A model generated the notes under the pieces. That model had not been told where the DNA came from. It saw only the letters and a program-made list of their open reading frames with translations, and ran no database searches. From the NCBI GenBank assembly GCA_009835515.1, contig VXXH01000632.1:1-5105 (forward strand): a stretch of DNA of 5,105 bases, in the 5' to 3' direction. How positions within the stretch are numbered: position 1 is the first letter of the stretch; every line of letters starts with the position of its first letter. The DNA is from Candidatus Poribacteria bacterium (GTDB taxonomy: Bacteria > Poribacteria > WGA-4E > WGA-3G). This document shows positions 1,891 to 5,105 of the stretch, piece after piece. The translations under genes and the position numbers were made by a program.

Positions 1891-2030
1891 GGTTATCAGT
1901 TATCGGTTATCAGTTTTCAGTTAAGAGGATTCTTGTGGCAGTTGAGGTTACTGTTCAAGTAACAACAAACCTCCTTAACTGACAACTGACGACTGCCAAC
2001 TCTTTAACTGACGACTGATAACTGACAACT
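1891..2030. repeat. Nested inverted-repeat element with heptamer arms (MITE-like or STRR-like)
   Basis: The left arm (1892-1926) is five consecutive 7-bp units close to GTTATCA. The right arm (1980-2029) is seven units in the opposite orientation, close to TGACAAC/TGATAAC, with one 8-bp unit at 2001-2008. The two arms can pair. The inner part of the stem is AGTTAAGAGG (1919-1928) with CCTCCTTAACT (1970-1980), perfect apart from one bulged base. Outside it the next 20 positions pair at about 14, more with G-U pairs. At the centre is the separate hairpin GTTACTGTTCAAGTAAC (1947-1963), a 6-bp stem with a 5-nt loop. The element nearly fills the gap between the oxidoreductase and HAD genes and encodes no protein. 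It could be a non-autonomous mobile repeat, a structured RNA or a transcription boundary. There is no T-tract, so a standard intrinsic terminator is not supported. Confidence 0.85.
1947..1963. other. Perfect apical hairpin inside the repeat element
   Basis: GTTACT (1947-1952) and AGTAAC (1958-1963) are perfect complements around the 5-nt loop GTTCA. The hairpin does not share the heptamer sequence of the arms, so it is a distinct core of the element. No run of T follows on either strand, so it is recorded as a structure only, without a terminator call. Confidence 0.7.
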
Positions 2031-2851: not shown

Positions 2852-5105
2852 CTACTTCGTAATTACCATTTTTCGGGTTGCTGTGAAATCTCCTGCTGTT
2901 AACGTATAGAAATATACGCCACTCGCCACGGGTTCACCAAGTTCATTTCTACCATCCCAATATGCTGCATGGCTCCGGTCTTGATAGGTACCCGCAAGTT
3001 GATGTCCGAGTGCTAAAGTGCGCACCAGTTTGCCGTGTGCTGCATAGATACTAACCGTCACGTCCGCGGGTGCTGCCAACTGATAAGGTATCCATGTCTC
3101 AGGGTTAAAAGGATTCGGATAGTTTGGAAGTAGTGCGGTTTCTTTCGGCATCAACACTGCAAGGAGTTGCTGCAGCACTAAAATGCCACGCTGGAAAGCG
3201 GGATCTGATAGCGCAACTTGTTGTGCTTCAAGCAGCCACTGCTGAACATCTTTTCTTGTAAGCGTTATTTCCGCATCGCGGCTCCACGCTGCCGACGCAC
3301 CGGCGGTATCCCCTATCGCACCTGCCACCAGTGCGAGATCGACAATATTAACAATGCCATCTCCGTTGACATCCGCTAAATTGTCGCCTGTCTGGTGAAA
3401 GTTTGAGGCGACGATGACCAGATCTTGGACGTTTACGACACCGTTGCCGTCCAAGTCGCCTACTGAGAGGAAGGGTTCCGTTATTTGTCCAGTTTTGACT
3501 CGCACGTACGAAATCCTACCTGCCCTGTCAGTGAGGAGTACATTAGATAATGTTAGCGTGGAGGCTTTCGGGGCAAGTGCCTCAAACGTAAGGGTGGCAA
3601 GCGTCCCAGAGCCGCTGGTTTCGCCAGCGAGAGAGGTTGCGGCAAGCGTCACTCTGTTTTCTGTGACAAGCGCAGGCACCGCATACGCGTCCGATAGCAA
3701 GTAGTCACCATTCGTGCTTTCAAGAAATCGGACAGCAGAAGGGTCAAACCGGACGGTTGCCTGATAACCTGAGACGGCACCTCCGTCTGCAATACTGAGA
3801 GCAAATGTGAGTTGCTCGCCGATAGCGGGTGATTGTACTGGAGATGGCGAAAAACTCACAGTTGCATACATATTGGTTGGCGGGGTAAAGTTCCACAAAA
3901 GCACAGTTCCATCTAAACTCGCACTGGCGAGTGTGTTACCATCTGGACTGATCGTAACGCCGAGAACGCCCCTTGTATGTCCGATCAGGGTTTGCCGATG
4001 TGCCCCGGAGATAGTATCCCACAGACGAATGGTGTCATCTAAACTCGCGCTCACGAGCGTGTCGCCCTCTGAAGTGTATGCGATGCTAAAGACGTAATCT
4101 GTGTGTCCAGTTAACGTCTGCTTATGCTCACCGAAAGCGGTGTCCCATAGCCGGATGGTGCCATCATCACTCGCACTTGCGAGTGTGCTACCATCCGGGC
4201 TGAATACAAGGCTCCTGACATAATCCGTATGTCCAGTCAGCGTCTGCTCATGCTGACCGGATGCAACATCCCATAGATAGATAGACCCGTCCCTACTGCC
4301 ACTTGCGAGAGTGTCCCCATCGGGGCTGAACGTAACACTCAGGATACCCTCTGGCTGCCCCATCAGTATCTGCTGGAGTTTACCAATGGCAGCGTTCCAT
4401 AGGCGAATGGTGCTATCTAAACTTGCACTGGCGAGCATGCTACCATCCGGGCTGAACGCAACACTTCTGACAGCATCTGCATGCTCCGTAAGCGTTTGTC
4501 GGTGTGTGCCGGTGGAAACATTCCAAAGACGGATCGTGCCATCGTCACTTGCACTGACGAGTGTACTACCATCCGGGCTGAACGCAGTACTCCCGACCCA
4601 AGCCGTATGTCCAGTCAGCGTGTGTGTGGATACGCCAGAGTCCGTGTTCCACAGATGCACTGTACCGTCCGCGCTACCGCTTGCAAGCGTTCCTGCAGTT
4701 GTACTAAATGCGACGCTGCTGATATAATCTGTATACCCTGTTAGTGTCTGCCTGTGCCCGCCGAAGACAGCATCCCACAATCGGATGGTGCCATCCGTAC
4801 TGGCACTCGTAATCGTTCCACCGCTGGAACTGTATGCGACACTCAAAACAGCACCCTCATGACCTACGAGGGTCAAATTATGCTGACCGGATGCAGCATT
4901 CCACACGCGGATAGTACCATCCCCGCTGCCACTGGCGATTGTGTCCCCATCGGGACTGAACGCAACACTCAAGACAGCCCCTGTATGCCCAGTTAGCGGT
5001 GTCCGCTGGACCACACCGAAGGTCGTATTCCATAAACGGATAGTACCATCGGCGCTGCCACTCGCAAGGTTTCCTCCAGTCGCATTGAAAGCGACAGTAT
5101 AGACA
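2852..5105 (-). CDS. WD40-repeat / cohesin-like / dockerin protein with C-terminal sorting-type domain (5' end missing)
   Basis: At least 750 residues are present and the frame stays open to the window edge, so the true start lies outside; the GTG at 5014 sits inside a blade and is not a credible start. From the N-terminal side there are ten or more WD40 blades (3887-5105), a cohesin-like beta-domain (about 3527-3868), two dockerin calcium loops (3308-3460), an acidic/helical linker with VQQWLLEAQQ (about 3143-3262), and a C-terminal domain opening LLPNYPNPFNPETW (2855-3133). WD40 propellers are protein-interaction platforms; cohesin and dockerin are binding partners in cellulosome-type assemblies; the C-terminal domain resembles those used for export or anchoring in type IX-like systems. 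No cysteine occurs in the visible part, which fits an extracytoplasmic protein, but the signal peptide would be off-window. The likely role is a surface or secreted scaffold or adhesin. It is transcribed toward the HAD gene and has no obvious functional link to it. Confidence 0.95.
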   Translation of the reverse strand, partial: VYTVAFNATGGNLASGSADGTIRLWNTTFGVVQRTPLTGHTGAVLSVAFSPDGDTIASGSGDGTIRVWNAASGQHNLTLVGHEGAVLSVAYSSSGGTITSASTDGTIRLWDAVFGGHRQTLTGYTDYISSVAFSTTAGTLASGSADGTVHLWNTDSGVSTHTLTGHTAWVGSTAFSPDGSTLVSASDDGTIRLWNVSTGTHRQTLTEHADAVRSVAFSPDGSMLASASLDSTIRLWNAAIGKLQQILMGQPEGILSVTFSPDGDTLASGSRDGSIYLWDVASGQHEQTLTGHTDYVRSLVFSPDGSTLASASDDGTIRLWDTAFGEHKQTLTGHTDYVFSIAYTSEGDTLVSASLDDTIRLWDTISGAHRQTLIGHTRGVLGVTISPDGNTLASASLDGTVLLWNFTPPTNMYATVSFSPSPVQSPAIGEQLTFALSIADGGAVSGYQATVRFDPSAVRFLESTNGDYLLSDAYAVPALVTENRVTLAATSLAGETSGSGTLATLTFEALAPKASTLTLSNVLLTDRAGRISYVRVKTGQITEPFLSVGDLDGNGVVNVQDLVIVASNFHQTGDNLADVNGDGIVNIVDLALVAGAIGDTAGASAAWSRDAEITLTRKDVQQWLLEAQQVALSDPAFQRGILVLQQLLAVLMPKETALLPNYPNPFNPETWIPYQLAAPADVTVSIYAAHGKLVRTLALGHQLAGTYQDRSHAAYWDGRNELGEPVASGVYFYTLTAGDFTATRKMVITK
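2855..3133 (-). other. C-terminal domain (NYPNPFNPET-type, FlgD/T9SS sorting-like)
   Basis: This part of the WD40 gene begins LLPNYPNPFNPETW. It then has a beta-rich module: PADVTVSIYAAHGKLVRTL, a YWDGRNELGEPVASGVYFY segment, and a basic tail ATRKMVITK. The pattern is that of C-terminal domains in Bacteroidota, Ignavibacteria and Poribacteria: Asn-Pro-rich entry, 'WDG...G..v.sGvYfY', final short strand. In Bacteroidota such domains direct type IX secretion. Whether the same machinery exists in this organism is not shown here. Confidence 0.85.
3308..3460 (-). other. Type I dockerin-like calcium-binding pair
   Basis: Two F-hand loops sit 28 residues apart within the WD40 gene: DLDGNGVVNVQDL and DVNGDGIVNIVDL. 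Each has the Asp/Asn pattern at loop positions 1, 3 and 5 and the Asp at position 12 that bind calcium in dockerins. Dockerins normally bind cohesins on partner proteins. Here a cohesin-like domain lies directly upstream in the same chain. Confidence 0.88.
3527..3868 (-). other. Cohesin-like beta-sandwich domain
   Basis: The translated segment begins with VSFSPSP and GEQLTFALSIADG, continues with YQATVRFDPSAVRFLES, and contains GSGTLATLTFEALAP before LTLSNVLLTD. This order of strands resembles cohesin domains: an opening 'vG....v.v.v.....v.gyq..v.yDp..l.f', then 'sGtlatltF.' and a closing strand. It lies between the WD40 array and the dockerin pair. The assignment is from pattern only and a profile search should test it. 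Confidence 0.75.
3887..5105 (-). repeat. 126-bp coding tandem repeat encoding WD40 blades
   Basis: Eight complete blades of exactly 42 residues (126 bp) follow one another without insertion or deletion: 4871-4996, 4745-4870, 4619-4744, 4493-4618, 4367-4492, 4241-4366, 4115-4240 and 3989-4114. A ninth, ending the array, is at 3887-3988, and a part of an earlier, 43-residue one is at 4997-5105. Typical features are the LTGHT opening, SPDG turn, SGS/SAS.DGTI and LWN/LWD. Some blades lack the Gly-His pair, having GY (blade at 4619-4744), EH (4367-4492) or GQ (4241-4366). The 17-mer CTACCATCCGGGCTGAA occurs at 4188, 4440 and 4566, offsets of 252 and 126 bp, showing repetition at DNA level. The array continues past the window. 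Confidence 0.95.

Follow-up and report, generated by a model that had tools for sequence, protein, structure and literature searches.

A palindromic repeat with TAACTGA-type arms, likely mobile, in intergenic gaps of Poribacteria

The palindrome described here lies in a stretch of 5,105 nucleotides (the window; contig VXXH01000632.1 of assembly GCA_009835515.1) from a Candidatus Poribacteria bacterium. It belongs to a family of dispersed palindromic repeats with TAACTGA arms and is likely (with a probability of about 0.6) a non-autonomous mobile element, probably copied via a folded single strand. The repeat has dispersed copies with shared cores and its orthologous slots differ among genomes, and both points favour a mobile element. 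The hosts are Poribacteria, which we take to be sponge symbionts, and a literature search covering titles and the openings of abstracts has revealed no account of such repeats in these bacteria.

Architecture of the element and its flanking genes

The element is an imperfect palindrome of 146 nt that occupies most of the 166-nt gap between a Gfo/Idh/MocA oxidoreductase gene and a HAD-hydrolase gene. Its parts and the two flanking genes are the following (window coordinates):

846-1871, + strand: Gfo/Idh/MocA oxidoreductase gene, upstream flank, ending in TTAGGATAG, with AGGA at 1865-1868
1888-2033, no strand assigned: whole palindromic element, with ends AATGGTTATC ... GACAACTATT, set by the commonest ends in 60 elements and the letters of the window
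1892-1923, + strand: left arm, a period-7 array of 4.6 GTTATCA-type heptamers, including two TCAGTTA
1919-1928, + strand: inner stem of the family, left side (AGTTAAGAGG), conserved, partner 1970-1980, with 4 of its 10 pairs invariant in 18 copies
1929-1969, + strand: core of the TTCTTGTGGCAG subfamily, defined by the 18-copy alignment and containing the non-conserved hairpin 1947-1963
1970-1980, + strand: inner stem of the family, right side (CCTCCTTAACT), conserved, partner 1919-1928, from pair counts in 18 copies
1971-1999 and 2000-2028: 29-nt direct repeat, overlapped by the right arm
1977-2030, + strand: right arm, a period-7 array of 7.6 units with TAACTGA/AACTGAC-type heptamers
2038-2736, + strand: HAD-family hydrolase gene, downstream flank, with its ATG 4 nt past the element

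An earlier note, made from the letters of this DNA alone, had placed the element at 1891-2030. The palindrome itself is real, with a single-strand fold of -51.2 kcal/mol (minimum free energy) versus -30.2 ± 3.8 for shuffled sequences (z -5.5; none of 200 as good), and its outer ends have been amended on the basis of the 60 elements. The tandem and mutually complementary heptamer arms mentioned in that note correspond to the two period-7 arrays, and the inverted repeats of the element join 1885-1915 with 2006-2036 (81% complementary) and 1898-1924 with 2004-2030 (85%). The perfect central hairpin (1947-1963, GTTACT-GTTCA-AGTAAC) within the 1919-1928/1970-1980 stem is present just as had been described. 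When both strands are considered, TAACTGA occurs five times in the window, always inside the element, with 0.37 occurrences expected by chance, and these five units are interspersed with variants instead of being tandem-perfect. The comparison of the window with the Rfam models gave no match at gathering score.

Two other heptamer-like stretches of the window, GTTATCGGTTGTCGGT at positions 26-41, upstream of a sulfotransferase gene, and CTTATCGGTTGTCGAT at positions 2779-2794, past the HAD gene, are possibly decayed arms. Positions 2852-5104 (minus strand) encode a WD40-repeat protein, and its C-terminal part resembles by eye a dockerin pair plus a PNPFNP-type sorting or Ig domain.

Copies and anatomy of the family

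The other poribacterial copies expected in the earlier note have been found throughout the genus. A BLAST search with a 152-nt region produced 63 matches at E<=1e-3 in the genome of the window itself (4.85 Mb in 881 contigs; 40 of 304 candidates scored), and at E<=1e-6 matches were present in 24/24 genomes of the same genus, this one included, with two weak matches among 16 other genomes. A covariance model (R1) built from 18 oriented copies (alignment A1) also matched 24/24 genus genomes, again including that of the window, at E<=0.01, with 20-124 matches each, although these figures are not copy numbers, because 150 candidates were scored per genome and either strand of a palindrome can give a match. 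A 400-kb stretch of G005, a single-contig genome, taken around the HAD orthologue and independently of copies, gave 34 R1 matches, which corresponded by tally to 19 distinct places. Three exact tandem TAACTGA units were found in 27/38 genus genomes versus 2/46 others of the phylum, the reversed-pattern control giving 0, and a core pattern matched 34 stretches of GTDB genomes, 33 from Poribacteria and one from Pseudoalteromonas. Two copies located in opposite orientation on one contig of the genome of the window (L036/L037, G000:C330) have 207 nt in common at 94.7% identity, nested hairpins included, the highest value noted between copies at different loci, and the pair is likely a recent duplication.

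The arm heptamers of the family are of the type G-Y-T-N-T-C-R, and an inner stem CAGTTAAGAG/CTCTTTAACTG surrounds a core with several subfamilies, TTCTTGTGGCAG being that of the window. Among 60 elements, selected by an inner TRGTT/AACYA, the commonest outer ends were AATRGTT...AACYATT (AA before TRGTT in 25/60, TT after AACYA in 32/60), so terminal inverted repeats are present as expected of MITEs, and no tag of the GTAG/CGTC type was found at the element foot among the commonest end tallies. The earlier note had also pointed to a possible target-site duplication, and none was detected in the 60 elements: direct repeats of 2-7 nt at four offsets were not above those of reshuffled flanks, with a single 2-nt excess (P 0.02) among 24 tests. 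A TAA/TTAA target duplication, hinted at by junctions of the lon|S4 slot and of a third slot (both described below), was likewise not upheld across the 60 elements. The element resembles MITEs in being short, non-coding, dispersed and provided with terminal inverted repeats, and it differs from them in lacking both this duplication and a parent transposon among the Y1 and RVT_1 families; the missing duplication makes a classical DDE MITE unlikely. The heptamer-bearing, MITE-like mobile repeat suggested from the letters alone is in keeping with the dispersed copies, the empty and filled orthologous slots and the apparent nested insertions.

Covariation was analysed in the 18 copies, where the stem 1919-1928/1970-1980, outer to the central hairpin, was paired in 94.3% of the cells with zero both-sided changes. 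The central hairpin was paired in 59.6% of the cells and is not a family feature; its both-sided changes, found in 3/6 pairs (7 cells in the whole structure), have been discounted as support because shuffles show as many (317/500 reach three pairs). RNAalifold gave 24 pairs, 0 with both-sided change, on the same copies. The R/Y positions of the arms showed no covariation in excess of reshuffled arms, pairing in 41 and 40 of 63 cases versus 37.6 and 39.4 after reshuffling, a control that is imperfect since both strands are counted. Small hairpins such as AAGATTTTTCGCAGAAAAATCG are nested in the heptamer arrays, with 52 distinct versions in 98 contexts in the loci studied, and 290/312 of their stem positions were Watson-Crick compared with 222 ± 6 (maximum 246) when arms were swapped between copies; the search pattern itself fixes one of the six stem positions. 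The compensatory change considered in the earlier note is consequently strong in the small nested hairpins and not shown for the heptamer arms, and for this reason the arms cannot be taken as an established structured RNA. Nothing observed here favours the recombination site that the note also suggested. An apparent anti-pairing at the fourth heptamer position (1/63 Watson-Crick) was dropped because each palindrome had been counted on both strands, which spoils the shuffled control; by reading, this position pairs in 2/18 of the oriented A1 copies, too small a set for any claim.

Turnover at orthologous gene junctions

The HAD gene was found in 29 of the 30 genomes searched, and two of them (G011 and G013), with no upstream gene on the contig, were omitted. 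The remaining 27 slots comprised 5 empty ones (a gap of 3-4 nt, or genes that overlap), 7 that contain two heptamer arms, 4 with the left arm only, 1 with the right arm only and 10 with none according to a strict pattern. Several of the 10 arm-free slots consist, by eye, of other inverted repeats, including a GGAAG...CTTCC type, GCGCGGTTTCTGACCGCGCC and tandem GGGGTTACAAACCCC (L058, L062, L064, L074, L080, L083-L085), and therefore several palindrome families inhabit poribacterial intergenic gaps. Where the slot is empty in G002 and G003, 6 nt separate the AGGA near the Gfo/Idh stop from the HAD start, and this AGGA would serve the HAD gene as a Shine-Dalgarno-like site; the corresponding distance in the window is 169 nt.

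The slot between lon and the S4-protein gene (lon|S4) was compared in the 30 genomes with Lon, that of G002 being unreadable (n=29), and 3 slots were empty (5-9 nt), 7 had both arms, 3 the left arm only, 4 the right arm only and 12 none, with a strict arm pattern that, in G007, overlooks the right arm of the palindrome. This slot contains a 100-nt element in G007 versus 9 nt in G001 and in G009, whose Lon is 97% identical to that of G007. The syntenic stretches of these three genomes (89-93% identical) include, apart from this presence/absence, two further sites with differing content. At lon|S4, G005, G004 and G011 resemble one element with hairpins added successively and nested, G006 is shorter than G000, G020 and G043 by about three heptamers, and a one-armed remnant of 24 nt is found in G016 and G008. 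A third slot, upstream of lon, was found by all-against-all comparison of the loci studied and seen in part; among the genomes listed, it is empty in G016, G008, G023 and G042, and its content varies among the rest. The Lon proteins of G017 and G007 share 96% identity, yet the lon|S4 content of G017 is unrelated, and homologous exchange of flanks may account for such slot differences. Any one slot's difference may also reflect gain or loss, in either direction.

As unrelated sequences fill the same slots, intergenic turnover is general, and stop-start junctions, including the space between ribosome-binding site and start, are filled very differently among related genomes. The presence of the palindrome, another sequence or nothing at the same junction makes a small mobile element likely, and its turnover would then involve transposition, beyond recombination and decay alone. 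Machinery from elsewhere in the cell would probably copy the element by way of a single strand folded back on itself, and the element would insert between stop and start codons at gene junctions. Once placed, it would likely grow or shrink by whole heptamers while its arms take up further small hairpins, and a deletion would leave a single arm. Insertion between stop and start would likely break the link between the downstream gene and the ribosome-binding site that it originally used.

The main rival of the mobile-element reading is that the palindromes are built in place without any transposition, replication slippage expanding the heptamers, template switching at the fork adding the second arm and gene conversion homogenising the cores. 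Orthologous copies that differ in length by roughly whole heptamers, the lack of target duplication and of a linked enzyme, and the 8/19 arrays in the 400 kb of G005 without an inverted partner within 200 nt are all in line with it. However, near-identical non-heptamer TTCTTGTGGCAG cores recur at many unrelated loci, which is hard to obtain by independent slippage, and the same stop-start gaps measure just 3-9 nt in relatives. As a complete explanation, growth in place is considered a good deal less probable than mobility, and slippage and template switching probably contribute to the heptamer counts.

A functional leader or spacer RNA is an improbable alternative, in which the array before the start would bind a translation factor and the hairpin would set the distance from ribosome-binding site to start. 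It was confronted with a survey of 78 loci (1.40 Mb, many of them picked for holding a copy; 973 called genes), where a TAACTGA-direction array is located upstream of 108/973 genes and 46/108 of these arrays end 5-20 nt before the start, a placement similar to that reported for Beggiatoaceae in the available part of PMC4679880. A motif resembling the Shine-Dalgarno sequence was present in 1/37 genes with the array end within 15 nt of the start versus 347/712 array-free genes (at least 40 nt upstream), a result partly built in because the test window overlaps the array; with array ends within 25 nt it was present in 16/54 genes (Fisher p 0.007 against the same array-free set), gene starts being simple longest-ORF calls. 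The one-sided changes of the arms in the 18 copies, mostly G-U compatible, would also suit an RNA. Against this, opposite-direction arrays are equally close to upstream stops (45/75 begin within 15 nt past the stop), arrays are also found in divergent (6/27) and convergent (2/24) gaps as well as in codirectional ones (17/186), with no clear orientation preference, and occupancy is not conserved at orthologous genes. Since arrays adjoin both starts and upstream stops, the gap from stop to start tends to be taken up by the palindrome.

The third rival, in which the repeats are REPIN-like and mobilised by Y1 transposases of the RAYT/IS200 type, is also judged quite unlikely. The palindrome shares with REPINs (PMC3116915) and GTAG/CGTC-tagged REPs (PMC3733652), as presented in the available parts of these papers, the inverted hairpin pairs, the extragenic location, the high copy number and the non-autonomous character; target duplication is missing too, and Y1 transposases are encoded in 23/24 genus genomes. 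It differs from them in its heptamer-built arms, in the absence of a tetranucleotide tag from the end tallies and in showing no Y1/RAYT association. A heptamer arm was found within about 1.5 kb of 3/30 Y1 loci examined versus 348/1000 random 3.3-kb pieces, that is, arms are fewer near Y1 genes, and Y1 counts and R1 matches were not correlated (rho 0.12, p 0.59); these results speak against mobilisation by Y1/RAYT. Genome G013, with 0 Y1 matches and 68 R1 matches, hints in the same direction, its assembly being 89% complete. Recurrent 14-mers with a count of at least 12 were found near none of the 30 Y1 loci, an insensitive search because only ten 14-mers reach 12; with a count of at least 5 they were found near 8/30 loci, 2 of these 8 being heptamer-type. 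Nor was a link to reverse transcription seen: RVT_1 was detected in 12/24 genus genomes and not in the single-contig, copy-bearing G010. With no mobilising enzyme found in either the Y1 or the RVT_1 family, the repeat is read as a non-autonomous hairpin element copied by a putative enzyme from elsewhere in the cell.

Some observations were made around the Y1 genes themselves. The sequence AAACACCCAAGCAA or a one-letter variant is located within 1.5 kb of the Y1 genes L098 (G020), L101 (G015) and L108 (G004) and recurs in the stretches studied, so it is a possible RAYT-linked repeat of the genus. G005 has eleven Y1 matches, unusually many, seven of them with open frames of 140-143 amino acids, and no heptamer arms were found at the two of its Y1 loci examined (L087 and L109).

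The heptamer outside Poribacteria

The TAACTGA heptamer is already known. According to the available part of MacGregor 2015 (PMC4679880), direct repeats of it are phylogenetically scattered among Beggiatoaceae, Thiocystis, cyanobacteria and Bacteroidetes and lie mainly between genes. The majority of the sets in the Guaymas Beggiatoaceae genome are directed towards nearby start codons that lack a canonical ribosome-binding site. The same part gives 1/170 sets as inverted, proposes translation-factor binding by the Beggiatoaceae arrays, makes no mechanism of spread evident and leaves Poribacteria unmentioned. The portion available of another paper (PMC4853749) counts the heptamer in Thiomargarita, where it is absent from the RepeatModeler families. 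The likeness to heptanucleotide repeats of cyanobacteria seen in the earlier note thus holds in that the heptamer is of a known type present in cyanobacteria, and fails in that it is not only cyanobacterial, being the TAACTGA of PMC4679880 as far as the available part describes it. The poribacterial repeats agree with those in the heptamer, the mostly intergenic location and the arrays ending near starts, and differ from their short direct arrays in forming two-armed palindromes with cores, nested hairpins and varying orthologous occupancy.

The two-armed architecture is what sets the poribacterial arrays apart from those elsewhere. With a looser rule, an inverted partner within 200 nt was found for 11/19 arrays in the 400 kb of G005, a closed genome, and for 11/22 in the syntenic G001/G007/G009 stretches, partly chosen around copies; the values were 60/110 in a bigger set, most of it selected for its copies, and 11/13 for exact arrays in the loci studied. 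In plasmid and phage collections, matches covered arm parts only (at most 36% of the query) and came from the five cyanobacterial genera Microcystis, Fischerella, Nostoc, Planktothrix and Brasilonema, from Bernardetia and from the Microcystis phage Mic1, where none of 11 arrays (8 stretches) had a partner of opposite orientation within 200 nt. Runs of about four TAACTGA-type units, picked up by a four-unit pattern, are present on 35 viral contigs of IMG/VR (L232-L266), and 1/48 exact arrays, or 4/60 by the looser rule, had such a partner.

The heptamer is common to distant phyla and its spread is left unexplained in the available part of PMC4679880, so the poribacterial palindromes provide a testable system. 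Which enzyme copies the palindromes, and whether the one-armed arrays found elsewhere are remnants, can be asked in Poribacteria. A speculative and rather doubtful extension is that the orphan TAACTGA arrays known from cyanobacteria, Bacteroidetes and giant sulfur bacteria, and from some of their viruses, would be single-arm remnants or relatives of a mobile, duplication-free hairpin element. In Poribacteria this element would have kept both arms and would still be turning over, its arms doubling as landing pads for smaller hairpins.

Elhai and co-workers reportedly described in 2008 the small dispersed repeats (SDR) of Nostoc as tiny hairpins with compensatory changes, nested and embedded in tandem heptamers. 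These would share with the poribacterial element the small compensating hairpins nested within heptamer arrays, a likeness of description; they belong to another phylum, and the heptamer arms of Poribacteria themselves form the outer hairpin. The SDR of Nostoc are also mentioned in the available parts of PMC4390886 and PMC3116915.

One-armed TAACTGA-type arrays have been located in the Microcystis plasmid p1-NIES88 (367 nt; L299, 6-372) and in the Microcystis phage Mic1 (115 nt; L297, 7939-8053), and the presence of the latter in a phage genome suggests phages as a possible vehicle for the spread of the heptamer.
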